A stretch of DNA of 51,419 nucleotides from IMG/VR virus record IMGVR_UViG_3300033150_001155, positions 1-51,419 of that record; one strand, 5' to 3'. Position numbers and translations under genes: made by a program. Under the pieces are notes generated by a model. The model did not search any database. It had not been told where the DNA came from and was given only the letters and a program-made list of their open reading frames with translations. This DNA is from a virus. Positions 41,269 to 49,400 of the stretch are shown piece by piece; positions within the stretch are counted from its first letter, which is position 1; every line of letters starts with the position of its first letter.

Positions 41269-41706
41269 TCAAACGCTTAATCGTGCGCTTATAAACCTTT
41301 GATTTATCGCCTGGAGATTCTCTTGATACCAGGCTCGAAATTTGTCAGGCTTAACTTTCAACTTACTTGATATCTCGATTATCGTATGCCCTGCCCTGAG
41401 GAGTTTCACGACCTTATTGATATCAACATTCGGTAATTTCTCTGAATGACTCTTAATAGGCCATCGTTTCTTTGCATCCTTCAGAATTTTCTCTGTCTTT
41501 CCGGCATTCGTCGTCATGAGTTTCGTCATCTCCCCGTTCCGGGCGTTCACCCACTCTCTGAGACGCTGTTCATTGACGTTCATCTCATAGGCAACCTTGT
41601 CTATCGGCCATCCGAGACTCCCGCGCAGATAATGCCAGCGAACCCAATTCTCAAGCGATTCAATCATTGAAAAATCTTTTGCCATCTCCCTTTTTGCCTC
41701 CATCAT
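41269..41706 (-). CDS. Double helix-turn-helix protein between protease and capsid genes
   Basis: A 145-residue protein with two helix-turn-helix-like segments, WPIDKVAYEMNVNEQRLREW and AGHTIIEISSKLKVKPDKFR, similar to those of small terminases. ATGA-coupled to the protease gene. A DNA-binding protein in the head operon between protease and capsid is unusual; it might regulate late transcription or take part in packaging. No family assigned. Confidence 0.55.
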   Translation of the reverse strand: MMEAKREMAKDFSMIESLENWVRWHYLRGSLGWPIDKVAYEMNVNEQRLREWVNARNGEMTKLMTTNAGKTEKILKDAKKRWPIKSHSEKLPNVDINKVVKLLRAGHTIIEISSKLKVKPDKFRAWYQENLQAINQRFISARLSV

Positions 41707-44570
41707 ACTTTTCCTCGCAGATATCCTATAGCATCAGCGATACCATCTCGCGTCGCTTTCTCCAAGAGTTTTTTCATGTCAATCGATCTGAGCTTCCCGT
41801 CAATCGCTTCCTCAATACGTGCAGTAATATCTTTGTCTCCATCGGTTTTGTCAAGCTCTATCATATAGGCGCGCTCTCCGCTGGCCTCTTCTTCCTGCTG
41901 TCGATCCGTCTCTTCCAAGAGTTTTTCAAGTTTCGGTATTGCGGCCTTCATCCCGGCAACGGCGTCCTCAATAATCCCGCGCGTCTTTGCCGATAGTACG
42001 CGTCCTTCTTTCAGCTCAGTTATTGACTCCCGAAGTAGCGTAATCTCTTCTTTCAGATCAGCGTGGTCATCCGACTCATATTCCCGTCCCGGGCCCGGAC
42101 GCCCGACACGCCTCATCTCCCCACCACATTCTGGGCAACTTATTTCATTGCAGTGCTTGTCAGTTGTCATCTTGTATCCACACTCAATACATTCACATTC
42201 GTATTCTTTCCTCTCTCTCTTCGCTATCGCAATTTCCTTATCAATCTTGACTTCAACCTCTCCGTTTATCCATTTGACTCTATTCCATATTGATTTAGCC
42301 CCAGTTTTGTTTCCTCGGATCTCTTCAATCAATTCGCGTTGCTCAATTAATTTATCAAGGCTCTTTAATAACGCCTCGCCGATATTAATCTCATCCTCAT
42401 CGGCAATAATGGAAGCAAACTCAACAAGCTCTTTCATATGAGCCCCAGAAAAACCAGCCGTCTTTTCTGCGATATCATCAAGAAGGGATTCCTCAATTTT
42501 ACCCGCCCAGAGTTCAATCATTTTTTTCCGCTGCAATTTGCTTGGTAATCGATAATTGATTATATGATGAAATCTGCCTGGCCTATCTAAAAGCGCATCC
42601 GGTAATTTTTCTGGATAATTCGATGTCATGATCGTTAATATCCCCTTATTTTGCCTGAGCCCGTCCATTTCTGTTTTCAGAAGATCAACCACAACAGAAT
42701 CTCGATCATTATATTCTTTCAGCCATGTATCGATATCCTCAATAAACAAGACGGTCGGGGCCAAATCCCGTGCCAATGAATAACCCAACGTAATTGCTCT
42801 TAGTGCGCCAATATGCCTAAAATCTCTACTTGATATCCATATGAAGGTAGTATCCATATTGGTCATTAAAATTCGACCGGTTTTTGTTTTCCCCGTACCC
42901 GGAGGGCCGATGAAAAGTAGCCCCCGCCCTAACATTCCGTTCCTTTTTTCCTCTAATGCATCAGAAGATTTTCTCAAGGCATCTTTATATTTCTCCTCAA
43001 GAATAAGCGTATCCCATCCCTCTTTTTTCTCAGTCAAGAAATCGCCAGCTAATGCAAACTTCTCCCCACGGAGATAATTATTTTCATTCACCCATTTGTG
43101 GACTTCTTCAAAAAGTCTCTTATTCCAATCTTTGTAATCAAGAGAAGTTATAAAAGATACGGATATCCCATCCCACGTTGGCTCATATTTGACAATTAAC
43201 GGCTTGCCCTCGGCATCATAAAAATTCAATCCGCTGATTAGAAAATCATCAGATTCTTTTGAATTTAATTTAATAATCTCATATTGTGGCGGAATTTCAG
43301 CCCCGCTCCAATAAAAATTTCTTGTATCTTTTAATTTGAATTTCCCTAGAGTCTTTTTAAGCCCTGCCAAATAAGTCCCCATAAGTGGACTCGGAATGTC
43401 GAAATTATTCTTGAATACTTTTTTGACCTTACATTCCAAATATTGCTCAAACAAATCAAACTCAAACGGCTTTGGAATTGGCGATTCCGCAGATTCAATA
43501 TCAAAGAGTTTTGACAACGACTTGTTCCATCTTTCTTTTTGTTTCGGTTCTTTAAATCCTAACTTACTAAATTCTTTATGAGACTCAACCCATGCTTGCG
43601 CTTCCTCCATTGTCCATTTTTCTTTATCAAATAGATATTTCTGGATATGCGTCGGTCCGTTCGGATCACTTTTCAACTTTCCAATTACGGCTTTAATCCC
43701 CTTCTCTTTGGAAATATCAATAGTCCTGAATGATGTTTTCACAAAATCGCCTTTGTCTCTGATGGGTATATGGTGGTAATTATCGGTAGTTTCTGGTTTC
43801 GTGATCTTCTTTTCCTCTGCCGTTTTCGTCTTTTTGCCTTCGCTCTCTTTTGTTTTTTCTTCATCGTCCTCCTCGGATTTCTCAAGTGAAAGTATAATTT
43901 CGCGGTCGACAACTTCCCGTTCTTTTTTCCATTCAATCTCCAAATCTTTCTTTAATCGGCCTTCGGGAAGTAGCCCTTTCTCAATCGCCAACGTCAACGC
44001 TTCAGGACATGAAGGAATAGGAACCACAGAATATTCAAGCAACTCCCATTCCGTATATATCCGCTTTGGCATATCCTTGTCCTCGGCCTCTTTGCCTTCC
44101 TTTATCTCTGGTTCCTCCCATTTCTTCGGGATGAACCCGACAGACCAGCCCTTGAGAAGAGGCCCCGTTCCTCCAACATCCTCCGTGCAGGCTTGATAAA
44201 CCTGATCAGCCCATTCGTTCTTTGCGAATATCGTCTTTGCTATCAGCCCCTTTTCGTCCGGCTTAATCCAAGCGCAATTCCCGATCGGGAGACTTCGATA
44301 ATCATGACCATAAAGCACTTTTGGATTCTTCGTATAATTCGACAGAATTACTCCCTCTGGCAAGAGCACTTCATCATCCCTGTCTTTCGTATTCGTTGAA
44401 ATGTACGAAATCACAGCCCGCTCTTTCGCGACCGTTTCCTGTTTTTCGGCAACGTATGATTTTCGGACAAACGGGATTTCATCCTTCTTGATCTTTAACC
44501 GCCGTGCAAGAGCCCCGGCCTTATCCGGAAACACATCAACATATTTTAAATTTTCAGTCATGATATTCAT
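41703..44570 (-). CDS. Prohead protease fused to AAA+ ATPase, zinc ribbon and coiled coil
   Basis: A 955-residue protein. Residues 1-200 are an HK97-type prohead protease with GHD (His89), GWSVGF (Ser143) and ELLEYSVVPIP (Glu179) as the candidate catalytic site. Residues about 265-335 hold a segment with HHIPIRDKGDF and EKWTMEEAQAWVE seen in some phage head-protease proteins. Residues 365-730 are an AAA+ ATPase: Walker A GPPGTGKT (555-562), Walker B VLFIEDID (607-614), sensor 1 SN (650-651), Arg finger DRPGRF (662-667). Then comes a zinc ribbon CIEC/CPEC (794-797, 812-815) and a coiled-coil C-terminus. The protease normally comprises about 200-250 residues alone, so this is a striking fusion. 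It may drive scaffold or delta-domain removal, or prohead maturation, with ATP. Confidence 0.9.
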   Translation of the reverse strand: MNIMTENLKYVDVFPDKAGALARRLKIKKDEIPFVRKSYVAEKQETVAKERAVISYISTNTKDRDDEVLLPEGVILSNYTKNPKVLYGHDYRSLPIGNCAWIKPDEKGLIAKTIFAKNEWADQVYQACTEDVGGTGPLLKGWSVGFIPKKWEEPEIKEGKEAEDKDMPKRIYTEWELLEYSVVPIPSCPEALTLAIEKGLLPEGRLKKDLEIEWKKEREVVDREIILSLEKSEEDDEEKTKESEGKKTKTAEEKKITKPETTDNYHHIPIRDKGDFVKTSFRTIDISKEKGIKAVIGKLKSDPNGPTHIQKYLFDKEKWTMEEAQAWVESHKEFSKLGFKEPKQKERWNKSLSKLFDIESAESPIPKPFEFDLFEQYLECKVKKVFKNNFDIPSPLMGTYLAGLKKTLGKFKLKDTRNFYWSGAEIPPQYEIIKLNSKESDDFLISGLNFYDAEGKPLIVKYEPTWDGISVSFITSLDYKDWNKRLFEEVHKWVNENNYLRGEKFALAGDFLTEKKEGWDTLILEEKYKDALRKSSDALEEKRNGMLGRGLLFIGPPGTGKTKTGRILMTNMDTTFIWISSRDFRHIGALRAITLGYSLARDLAPTVLFIEDIDTWLKEYNDRDSVVVDLLKTEMDGLRQNKGILTIMTSNYPEKLPDALLDRPGRFHHIINYRLPSKLQRKKMIELWAGKIEESLLDDIAEKTAGFSGAHMKELVEFASIIADEDEINIGEALLKSLDKLIEQRELIEEIRGNKTGAKSIWNRVKWINGEVEVKIDKEIAIAKRERKEYECECIECGYKMTTDKHCNEISCPECGGEMRRVGRPGPGREYESDDHADLKEEITLLRESITELKEGRVLSAKTRGIIEDAVAGMKAAIPKLEKLLEETDRQQEEEASGERAYMIELDKTDGDKDITARIEEAIDGKLRSIDMKKLLEKATRDGIADAIGYLRGKV

Positions 44571-44582
44571 CTTATTCCTCCG

Positions 44583-46307
44583 TTATTCCTCTGTTATCGG
44601 TAATATATGACATCGACAATTACTTGAAATTACTCCATTGCTGATGTATAATGAAGATTGCGTATGTAGATCGTAAACATAACCATGAAAAGAATCAATC
44701 TTGATATCGACAATCTTCTTCGTCTTTATGAAAGCGGGGAGTCCGAGAAGGCACTCGCCGAAAGGTTTAACATTGCTCGCGGTTCTATTCGTCTTCGCTT
44801 GCTCGAGAATGGGGTCAAACCCAGAAATAGAAGCGAGGCTATGTTCACCAGAATGAGCAAGACGTCGAAGGAAGAACGGATGCGGTTGACGGGAGCCGCC
44901 CACGCTGCTGTCCGCGGCAAACGCCAAAGCCTCGAATATCGCTGTAAGATTGCTAAAACGAGAGAGATCAAACAAATTGGTATCGGTCGCGGAGAAATTA
45001 TGCTCGCGGAGAAATTGAGTAAATGCGGTTTTTCCTGTATCCAACAAAAAGCCATCGGCCCCTATAATATCGATGTAGCCATCACAAAACCGCCCATCGC
45101 CGTGGAGCTGTTCGGCGGAAACTGGCACGCGTTTGGCAACCATGCCAGGTGCTTTCGCAAACGAACTGATTATATCCTCAATTCTGGCTGGGCCGTTATT
45201 ATTATTTGGGTTACCAGGAATTATCCCCTTGAGCGAGGAGCAATAGAATATATCGTCTCCTTTGCGGAGAAGTTGAGCCGAGGCGAAACCGTTGGGAGTA
45301 AGGAGCATATGATTCGGGGTGACGGTAAGAGGACTACCCTCGGAAAAAGAAAGCTCAATAATCTTCCCCCTATAGAAGGCCCTCAGCCCCGCGATCGTAT
45401 TACCGGCCGTTTCACATCTCGTCCCTGGCAATAAACATCTAGCATGTAAAGGTGGGGATTCTATATCTGTATAATTAACTTTCAGGCTCAATTCTTTTCC
45501 CTCGCGCTCAACCGTAAACTCATCCCCCATAGAAAAGAACTTTTCCTCAATTCCTATTGTCTTGCCATCTAAATCTTCGCAAAAAGGACAGGTACGAGAA
45601 TCCCAAAACGTAGCCCAGGTGAGATGTGTCACTACTCCACTTTGCCTATAGGCTGCCAGAGCCCCCTGATTTGAAGCTCTCAGCGTCTCTGTTCTTGCAA
45701 TCATCTCAGACCGTGCTTTGTTCCAATTATCATATGTCATATTGACACGCTTTGTAAGCTCTGGGATCCCCTCCCCGGCCTCAATCCCGGCCTTTAGTTG
45801 CCGGCGTAGCTTTTCAATATTAACGCCCTCCATTGACTCTGACAAATGGAGCGGATATGTATCAAGCCATTTCTGGACATGAGGATTCCCCATATCAAAC
45901 GCTATATCAAGCTCTGCAAACTCAATAGCTCCATCTGCATTTTTCTCCATTATCTCAGCCATCAATGTCTTAAACAATGCATTGAATTCATCAACAAACT
46001 TCTTTTTCGGATATAACAGCTCATCGGTTTTATCTTTCGTTCGCCATGCCTTTTTTGTCTTTTTTATATTCGCTATGATGATTCGCCGTTCCTTCTCCCA
46101 TACCTTGATGATGCTTCGGCGCATCCGACGTTCAAACGGAAGATTCAATCGCTCAAGCAAAGCAAATATCGCCGGGTTCCTTTTCCGTGAAACCTCGGTA
46201 ATAACCGCATCCAACAGCGCATCTTTCAAATGTCGTTCAACATGTTCATGACAACATTCGCAGAGTGTATCATAAGCTATCTGCTCGGCAATGATCTGTT
46301 TATCCAT
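44583..46307 (-). CDS. MuF/SPP1 gp7-like minor head protein interrupted by an intein
   Basis: A 574-residue precursor. The N-extein (residues 1-290) is a head morphogenesis protein: ARTETLRASNQGAL, WDSRTCPFCEDLDGK and the MuF-domain end SPPLHAR. The intein covers residues 291-563. The C-extein is only 11 residues (CRCHILPITEE). Splicing restores PPLHAR-CRCHILP, the conserved PPLHxxCRC motif. The mature protein would be 301 residues. It overlaps the portal gene by eight bases, as is usual for MuF genes. Confidence 0.93.
   Translation of the reverse strand: MDKQIIAEQIAYDTLCECCHEHVERHLKDALLDAVITEVSRKRNPAIFALLERLNLPFERRMRRSIIKVWEKERRIIIANIKKTKKAWRTKDKTDELLYPKKKFVDEFNALFKTLMAEIMEKNADGAIEFAELDIAFDMGNPHVQKWLDTYPLHLSESMEGVNIEKLRRQLKAGIEAGEGIPELTKRVNMTYDNWNKARSEMIARTETLRASNQGALAAYRQSGVVTHLTWATFWDSRTCPFCEDLDGKTIGIEEKFFSMGDEFTVEREGKELSLKVNYTDIESPPLHARCLLPGTRCETAGNTIAGLRAFYRGKIIELSFSEGSPLTVTPNHMLLTPNGFASAQLLRKGDDIFYCSSLKGIIPGNPNNNNGPARIEDIISSFAKAPGMVAKRVPVSAEQLHGDGRFCDGYIDIIGADGFLLDTGKTAFTQFLREHNFSATDTNLFDLSRFSNLTAIFEALAFAADSSVGGSRQPHPFFLRRLAHSGEHSLASISGFDPILEQAKTNRTASNVKPFGECLLGLPAFIKTKKIVDIKIDSFHGYVYDLHTQSSLYISNGVISSNCRCHILPITEE
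44624..44652 (+). promoter_or_regulatory. Sigma70 promoter for the antisense endonuclease, inside the intein
   Basis: TTGAAA (44624-44629), exactly 17 bases, then a perfect TATAAT (44647-44652). The predicted start lies near 44659 and the endonuclease ATG is at 44685, giving a 5' leader of about 25 bases without a clear Shine-Dalgarno site. The promoter DNA also encodes the block F-G residues SSLYISNGVISS of the intein. It stands alone on the plus strand among minus-strand late genes. Confidence 0.75.
44685..45434 (+). CDS. Vsr-like homing endonuclease, antisense and nested in the MuF intein
   Basis: A 249-residue protein. An N-terminal helix-turn-helix (GESEKALAERFNIARGSIRL) is followed by a Vsr/PD-(D/E)XK-type nuclease domain: IGRGEIMLAEKL, YNIDVAITKPPIAVELFGG, NWHAF and SGWAVIIIWVT, with Asp, Glu and His expected at the metal site. 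This fits the Vsr-like homing endonuclease family known beside split inteins. The gene lies wholly within the intein on the opposite strand, and its TAA stop is the complement of intein codon 2. It contains no TTA, CTA or TCA codon (0 of 19 Leu, 0 of 14 Ser), which keeps the intein frame open. An upstream in-frame stop at 44667 fixes the ATG. Confidence 0.88.
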   Translation: MKRINLDIDNLLRLYESGESEKALAERFNIARGSIRLRLLENGVKPRNRSEAMFTRMSKTSKEERMRLTGAAHAAVRGKRQSLEYRCKIAKTREIKQIGIGRGEIMLAEKLSKCGFSCIQQKAIGPYNIDVAITKPPIAVELFGGNWHAFGNHARCFRKRTDYILNSGWAVIIIWVTRNYPLERGAIEYIVSFAEKLSRGETVGSKEHMIRGDGKRTTLGKRKLNNLPPIEGPQPRDRITGRFTSRPWQ

Positions 46308-47743: not shown

Positions 47744-48967
47744 TCATACCACAGATATCTCCCATCCCGCACCGCCGTAATGCTCACGCGCCCAGTTTGC
47801 CAGAGCAAGTGCCGTAACTGCATCGTCATGATAGCCTTCTGGTGCCGAATAATGCACAATCCCTGACGGATTGATTTTGTATTCATATATATCAAGCTCA
47901 TTCTTAAGCACCGGATCGTCAAATATTTTAATCCTCTCCTGCTCAAACGCTATCCGGAGGAGTTCAATCAGTGCCTTCTTTTTCGGATTCGTGAATTGAT
48001 ACCCTTCAACGTTGAGACCGGCATTCTGGAGCTCGCCGAGTATTGGATCACCTACACCCGTCGAATCTATGAGGAGATAGGGATCATATTTCTCGCATAT
48101 TTCAGTGATCCTCCTCACCTGCTCTTTCCAATCAATGATATTGAATCGATCCATAAAGACCTGATTTCCTTCTTCATCAAGTATAACGAGGACAGTAAAA
48201 TCAACAAGGCGCGCGAGGTCTAATCCTGCATAATACGATCTTCCTTCTTTCGGCTCCTGTGGCTCAGCTCCGACACATGCCTTGACATTTCGGAATACGC
48301 CGGCCATGTCATCAAGAAATTCCGCCAAATATTCTTGCCTGAATACATCATCCGGGAGTGATTGTCGCGCCTGTTCAACGTCCGCAGGAAGGACAAAAGG
48401 ATTGTCGGCAGTCGGGGACCGCCATGATTCATATTCCGGCTGTAGCGGATCCTGCCCGCGTGTCCAAATATCAAAGAACCAATTCTTTCCTTTCGGCGTT
48501 GATAGGAACAGAACTCTTCCCCCGGTATCAGATACTGCGGGACGGATAATCTCCTCCCAGACCTCACGCTTCACGCGCGCAGCCTCGTCTATTACGACTC
48601 TCATTAAACCCTCGCCTCGAAGTGAATCCGGATTATCTCCACTCTTGAATTCCATAACACCGTCGTTAATAAAATCAATTCTCAATTCCGTATGGGAGAC
48701 GTTCTTCAACATCCAGCTAACTTTTCCTTCTTTGACGGCAGAGAGGAATTTTCGAAATGCCATCCGGCTTTGTGAATAGACAGGTGCGATCCACCAGTTA
48801 ATTCCCTCATCCTCGCATACACCTTCAAAAAGCCAGTTAAGTCCGGTGACCGTTTTTCCCCACCGCCTTCCTGCATCAATTGAGAGGAATCGAGCCATTG
48901 ATTTGAAAATAACCGCCTGTGACGGGCGTGGTTCATAGGCTTCGATTTCATGCTCAATCACCTGCAT
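47744..48967 (-). CDS. terL: Terminase large subunit
   Basis: A 407-residue ATPase-nuclease. Walker A is AGRRWGKT (residues 32-39, with the Arg-rich loop typical of terminases) and Walker B VVIDEAA (124-130). The C-terminal RNase H-like nuclease begins YYAGLDLARLVDFTVLVI with the first catalytic Asp, and HDDAVTALALA gives the later one. It powers DNA packaging and cuts concatemers. Overlaps the small subunit gene by 14 bases. Confidence 0.92.
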   Translation of the reverse strand: MQVIEHEIEAYEPRPSQAVIFKSMARFLSIDAGRRWGKTVTGLNWLFEGVCEDEGINWWIAPVYSQSRMAFRKFLSAVKEGKVSWMLKNVSHTELRIDFINDGVMEFKSGDNPDSLRGEGLMRVVIDEAARVKREVWEEIIRPAVSDTGGRVLFLSTPKGKNWFFDIWTRGQDPLQPEYESWRSPTADNPFVLPADVEQARQSLPDDVFRQEYLAEFLDDMAGVFRNVKACVGAEPQEPKEGRSYYAGLDLARLVDFTVLVILDEEGNQVFMDRFNIIDWKEQVRRITEICEKYDPYLLIDSTGVGDPILGELQNAGLNVEGYQFTNPKKKALIELLRIAFEQERIKIFDDPVLKNELDIYEYKINPSGIVHYSAPEGYHDDAVTALALANWAREHYGGAGWEISVV

Positions 48968-49400
48968 CCTTGCCGTTCCCTCCGAACCGAAAAACTAATT
49001 TATGTTTCATCTCTCCTTGGATATCTATCTGTTGTCGATCTCTCCACCTTTCCGGTTGCCTGTTTTTAAGCCAAAATATCTGAGCGGTTGTATCTGGGAT
49101 CACATGTTTTTTCACTCTTTTCACTAGCACAATTTTATCCCCACGTCTCTCAAATGTTTCTTCTACATATTCATATCCAACAGCCCGTTTATAAAGATGG
49201 TTTTCAACGTTTCTATCAGCATTGGCTTTTGCTTTTTTTAAGGAGTGACTAAATTCAGGATATTTATCAAGCCAGCGATATAGAGATCTTTTTGAAACCC
49301 CCCAAAACTCTGCGATTTGTTCAATTGTCAGCCCATAGCGTGCAAGATAGATGGCTTCATCCATCATCTCTTTTTTGAATAATGTTTTTCGTCCTCTCAT
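48954..49400 (-). CDS. terS: Terminase small subunit
   Basis: A 148-residue protein. An N-terminal helix-turn-helix (LTIEQIAEFWGVSKRSLYRW) is followed by an oligomerisation region and the C-terminal ITAQIFWLKNRQPERWRD-type motif, common to small terminases that select DNA for packaging. ATGA overlap upstream. Confidence 0.88.
   Translation of the reverse strand: MRGRKTLFKKEMMDEAIYLARYGLTIEQIAEFWGVSKRSLYRWLDKYPEFSHSLKKAKANADRNVENHLYKRAVGYEYVEETFERRGDKIVLVKRVKKHVIPDTTAQIFWLKNRQPERWRDRQQIDIQGEMKHKLVFRFGGNGKDAGD

Follow-up and report, generated by a model that had tools for sequence, protein, structure and literature searches.

The closing codons of a phage intein very likely double as the promoter of a gene on the opposite strand. 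In the 51,419-nt phage sequence analyzed here (IMG/VR record IMGVR_UViG_3300033150_001155, hereafter the window), a site resembling the sigma-70 consensus lies within the codons of intein blocks F and G. Comparison with relatives gives us high confidence that this site is a genuine promoter of a mobile intein, driving a putative homing endonuclease gene antisense to it. With less assurance, we favor a broader reading in which such elements form a class of phage inteins: the homing endonuclease is antisense to the splicing domain, blocks F-G serve as promoter, ribosome-binding site, and start codon, the nuclease is expressed on its own schedule, and the promoter register co-evolves with active-site residues (Ser with TTGACA-17, Lys with TTGACA-18, and His with an extended -10).

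The intein interrupts a gene for a Mu F-like minor head protein (44583..46307, minus strand; PF04233, E 1.7e-16), which encodes a precursor of 574 aa and adjoins the portal gene on its upstream side. Its own sequence and those of relatives delimit a 273-aa intein at 44619..45437 (minus strand), with the Cys1 codon at 45435-45437, the terminal Asn codon at 44619-44621, and the +1 Cys at 44616-44618. The N-extein ends in ...PPLHAR and the C-extein is CRCHILPITEE, yielding the junctions PPLHAR/CLLPGT...GVISSN/CRCHILP. PF14890 also matches the precursor (E 4.9e-6), under its gathering score. Cys1, T40/N42/H43 of block B, Asn273, and the +1 Cys, as expected of a class 1 Hint domain, are all found in the window, and C1, H43, and N273 are invariant across 38 relatives. 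The penultimate His of class 1 inteins is absent; the residue is Ser in the window, as in 55 of 76 relatives, and its codon is AGT, the complement of ACT at 44622..44624, just as the sequence-only reading had described. An AlphaFold model of the intein matches the solved inteins 7qsu and 7qss, with confident Hint ends and poorly predicted parts of the middle, opposite the antisense open reading frame (ORF). Given the kept catalytic residues and the intact flanking head protein, the intein would be expected to splice itself from the precursor. Elsewhere in the window, a 955-aa protein encoded at 41703-44570 (minus strand) fuses a prohead protease (PF04586) to an AAA ATPase domain and a zinc-ribbon-like stretch, and small HTH/transposase-like proteins encoded at 48954-49400 and 41269-41706 (both minus strand) flank the head genes; the former may be a small terminase subunit.

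Wholly within the intein, and on the plus strand, lies an ORF of 249 aa (44685..45434) whose codons are exactly opposite the intein codons and whose stop codon abuts the Cys1 codon. Its ATG (44685..44687), 66 nt from the intein end, is the complement of the block F His codon CAT (SFHGYVYDL). From codon use, 249 stop-free antisense codons are expected 0.00017 times (about 0.0002). The predicted product combines an N-terminal, resolvase-type HTH (PF02796) with a Vsr/EDxHD-like nuclease domain (PF18741, matched under its gathering score), and is a putative homing endonuclease; phrog_3339, a homing endonuclease family, matches it with E 0.0013. When a profile of 55 relatives was compared with the PDB, modest matches were obtained to 3r3p (I-Bth0305I, E 0.0022) and 1cw0 (Vsr, E 0.0034), and 3hrl was matched as well. 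The same three structures were the best Foldseek matches of an AlphaFold model of the ORF (pLDDT 88); 1cw0 and 3r3p were recovered with probabilities of 0.99-1.00, yet E values of 0.03-0.04. The EDxHD (Vsr-like) catalytic residues are present as E104, D130, and W147-H148. Opposite this nuclease core (44980-45130), the sense strand of the intein contains a conserved LHGDGRFxDGxIDI, which is apparently the shadow of the antisense catalytic motif; a sense-strand role is possible, and AlphaFold confidence there is middling.

The promoter site comprises a -35 element TTGAAA (44624..44629), overlapping the Ser, Ser, and Ile codons of block G, a 17-nt spacer (44630..44646), and a -10 element TATAAT (44647..44652), overlapping the S-L-Y codons (TCA TTA TAC). 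Direct reading of the plus strand thus bears out the earlier description of TTGAAA-17-TATAAT in the block F-G codons, as well as its statement that CAT or CAC in place of AGT would put G at 44624. Relatives have TTGACA at the same offset. Judged by the position of the -10, transcription would start at 44659, 7 nt downstream, giving a predicted 5' leader of about 26 nt that is entirely internal to the intein. The Shine-Dalgarno site of the relatives, TTGGAGGTC, which is the complement of block F D-L-Q, corresponds to 44665..44671, where the window has TGTAGATC instead and no recognizable Shine-Dalgarno. Against TTGACA / 17 +/- 1 / TATAAT, the window promoter scores 11/12, with its single mismatch in the -35, and it is the best sigma-70-type match within 41-49.5 kb. 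TTGAAA-N15-19-TATAAT occurs once in the window versus 0.12 times expected, which from one genome is only suggestive.

We therefore relied on comparative conservation, which settles what a single genome only suggests. By tblastn, the antisense ORF was detected in 129 phage records, and among the matches listed it was almost always opposite a head-morphogenesis or minor-capsid gene. IMG/VR supplied 223 candidate relatives, from which 80 loci were fetched; the comparison set consists of 76 inteins with distinct leaders, all with the antisense ORF and not independent of one another. The ORF is in register with the intein in 76/76. No ORF-less control inteins were found: when the N-terminal Hint region was searched alone, an in-register antisense run was present in every assessable close match, and the nuclease motif in nearly all of them. 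Three further loci (L163, L164, L165) are N-terminal intein regions whose frame stops or leaves the contig soon past block B, and could be split or decayed inteins. A search of a genome collection returned one distant match only. Inteins at other head-gene positions, in L025 and L029 (Kagunavirus), L023 (Sejanus), and L028 (REQ3), also have an antisense nuclease match, and their penultimate residues are Lys, His, and Ser. Nearly all records miss the ORF; in Salmonella phage vB_StyS-sam it is partly annotated, as a hypothetical protein (L168:997-1398, plus strand). In Acinetobacter phage P1068, a related nuclease stands alone (L026:1330-2223, plus strand); its gene directly follows an intein-free MuF gene, converges on it, and may be a free-standing form beside its target.

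That the S-L-Y and S-S-N codons of blocks F-G happen to spell the two hexamers is a natural first objection. Codons for Ser and Leu, among them TCA, TTA, and AGT, are indeed required by the protein, and 0.5% of synonymous recodings of the window intein's end reach an equal score (11/12) at the site. We evaluated this reading across the family by generating 400 synonymous recodings of the final 30 codons of every intein at local codon usage; scores use the sigma-70 consensus, on the assumption that the hosts of most loci employ sigma-70. A match of at least 11/12 at the fixed site is found in 35 of 55 Ser members versus 0.23 expected (recoding maximum, 3 in 400 simulations), and a perfect TTGACA-17-TATAAT in 21/55 versus 0.02 expected, which amounts to excesses of about 150-fold and 1000-fold, respectively. 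When the set is thinned so that nucleases share less than 50% identity, at least 11/12 is still reached by 12 of the 23 remaining Ser members, and 7 have a perfect match. The excess is moreover confined to one offset. In a positional profile of 1.8 kb around each of the 76 inteins (about 135 kb in total), 38 of 39 strong antisense matches (at least 11/12) fall at the promoter site, 35 at offset 5 with spacer 17 and 3 at offset 4 with spacer 18; the sense strand has 1. Synonymous recoding and the positional profile together lead us to reject a chance origin for the family, and codon-use coincidence is scarcely credible as an account of the site. The earlier proposal that a sigma-70 promoter is built into the block F-G codons is thus supported, its conservation among relatives going far beyond synonymous chance. 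Some ORF-bearing relatives (e.g., L012, L014, L021, L031, L101) have no obvious promoter at the site.

Instead of serving a nuclease mRNA, the conserved DNA could start an antisense RNA by which the head gene is regulated, or could be an operator to which the nuclease binds. An antisense transcript would overlap the head gene, and there is precedent for an operator in I-TevI, which binds an operator overlapping the late promoter of its own gene (PMC3943268). Against both, the translation signals at a fixed downstream distance are enriched as well. The Shine-Dalgarno GGAGG opposite block F D-L-Q occurs in 32/76 inteins versus 6.6 expected by recoding, and an ATG lies 60, 63, or 66 nt inside the intein end in 63/76 versus 30 expected; in most cases it is complementary to the block F His codon CAT. 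The window is an average family member in this respect, with an 11/12 promoter, the ATG, and no clear Shine-Dalgarno. Given this enrichment and the conserved, foldable nuclease that the ORF encodes, an mRNA accounts for the site more simply, and we regard an antisense RNA or operator in its place as improbable; autoregulation on top of an mRNA promoter is a possible addition.

The -35 element shares its first base with the penultimate codon, and the sequence-only reading had speculatively proposed a trade-off in which promoter strength competes with splicing chemistry and may cost the intein its penultimate His. Among the 76 relatives, this residue is Ser in 55, His in 13, and Lys in 5, and each goes with its own promoter arrangement. 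AGY-serine members have the promoter at offset 5 with spacer 17 (-35 present in 38/49). In 4 of 5 Lys members, it is at offset 4 with spacer 18, as V-K-N gives TTGAC shifted by one base. An exact extended -10 (TGnTATAAT) at offset 6 is found in 6 of 13 His members versus 0.08 expected, with a near version in L007, such that the His lineages would appear to use another promoter register. Known strong-consensus cases all come from metagenomes; of the cultured phages, Jerseyvirus and Vibrio 1.197.A have the extended -10.

Several observations are consistent with the -35 being the reason for Ser, and not His, at the penultimate position. At the Ser-type register, a -35 of at least 5/6 is present in 38/55 Ser members and in none of the 13 His members; since any His codon places G at the first base of the -35, the latter count is in part a necessity. 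Most His members use the other promoter type, and a TTGACA-type -35 in any register is present in 1/13 of them versus 42/63 of the others (Fisher p = 1e-4, confounded by phylogeny). L087, which falls within the Ser clade but has His, no longer contains TTGACA and reads TGATATAAT. These associations draw on few independent changes: the nuclease tree has about 6 His/non-His changes, about 9 promoter changes, and at most 2 well-supported independent pairs, too few to test for correlated evolution or for the raw His/-35 association to count as independent evidence. The antisense ORF and a penultimate His also coexist in 13 members (L007, L013, L015, L016, L018, L024, L032, L087, L089, L102, L103, L105, L112), a combination that the earlier proposal itself had named as counting against it, and L089 pairs His with TGGACA-18-TATATT. 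Conversely, Ser is also found where this -35 is lacking, in other lineages (e.g., L008, L011, L012, L017, L019, L021, L022), and in all six inteins that encode it by TCN (L034, L041, L047, L070, L093, L101) the -35 is destroyed; Ser can therefore be explained without the promoter. The first -35 base needs only a codon beginning with A (Ser AGY, Lys, Thr, Asn, and others), which excludes His without demanding Ser. Splicing without a penultimate His is itself documented, through compensatory changes, in a passage of PMC7664689 that cites Chen, Benner and Perler (2000). What stands of the trade-off is that this -35 is absent from all His members; a loss of His on account of the promoter is not supported, and we consider the -35 an unlikely cause of the Ser. 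Residue and promoter register move together, and the -35 can coexist with Ser without having to be its cause.

Under the favored reading, in which the site is the promoter of the nuclease mRNA, the promoter (offsets 5-33), ribosome-binding site, and start codon (offset 60 or 66) would all be contained within 60-66 nt of block F-G codons. As these signals are inside the element, the nuclease gene would move with its own signals, independent of the strand or timing of the head gene. Because the nuclease gene is on the strand antisense to the late head operon, its product could be made at another time than the head protein. RNA would start at about 44659, and the nuclease would be produced separately in time, plausibly early and by the host polymerase, with timing as the presumed benefit. 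The protein would cut intein-free MuF genes, and repair would then copy the intein into the cut gene. The distribution in Jerseyvirus is that of a sporadic insertion: of the 349 matching records, 58 contain the complete gene together with the intein, and most of the others sampled match in two pieces, with the intein absent. Between phage Ijeoma and FSL SP-101, the exteins are 95% identical, and the intein is missing so precisely that the flanks join codon for codon.

One DNA stretch would thereby encode the catalytic C-terminus of a protein and, antisense to it, a promoter, a ribosome site, and a start codon. As this multiple use is repeated across many phages, the trade-offs can be read from natural variation. 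The arrangement offers an intein in a late gene a way to run its endonuclease on separate timing, and predicts an unannotated opposite-strand endonuclease in many MuF genes of well-known phages (Jerseyvirus and phages of Gordonia, Pseudomonas aeruginosa, and Vibrio).

Inteins that contain a homing endonuclease, nucleases of the EDxHD type, and endonucleases hidden out of frame are already known separately. What appears to be new is that the endonuclease lies fully antisense to the intein and that blocks F-G contain its promoter, ribosome site, and start codon: no report of an intein with an antisense endonuclease was found in the open-access literature, and an earlier description elsewhere is possible. 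Mobile inteins with an in-frame endonuclease (TliVMA, PI-PfuI) are alike in their Hint blocks A, B, F, and G, their insertion at a conserved motif of an important gene, and their sporadic distribution with intein-free alleles; there, the nuclease is in the intein frame, whereas here it occupies the opposite strand and has a promoter and start of its own. The catalytic domain resembles those of I-Bth0305I and related EDxHD homing endonucleases (3r3p) and of Vsr by profile and predicted fold, but I-Bth0305I is a group I intron enzyme, and no antisense overlap of such a nuclease with a splicing domain was found described in the literature searched. T4 I-TevI is likewise an endonuclease of an intervening sequence with its own promoter inside the element (PMC3943268), but that promoter is a late one on the same strand, splicing is at the RNA level, and the promoter is outside protein-splicing codons. 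The ShiLan-type insertions (Arsenault, Gosselin and Gogarten 2025, PMC11855218) are also mobile phage insertions that are open in the host frame and hide a nuclease in another frame. Theirs is a same-strand, out-of-frame HNH ORF with no splicing domain and no detectable ribosome site, its translation left open, features by which the window intein does not belong among them; it instead contains an antisense Vsr/EDxHD nuclease inside an intein, with a promoter and, usually in the relatives, a Shine-Dalgarno.
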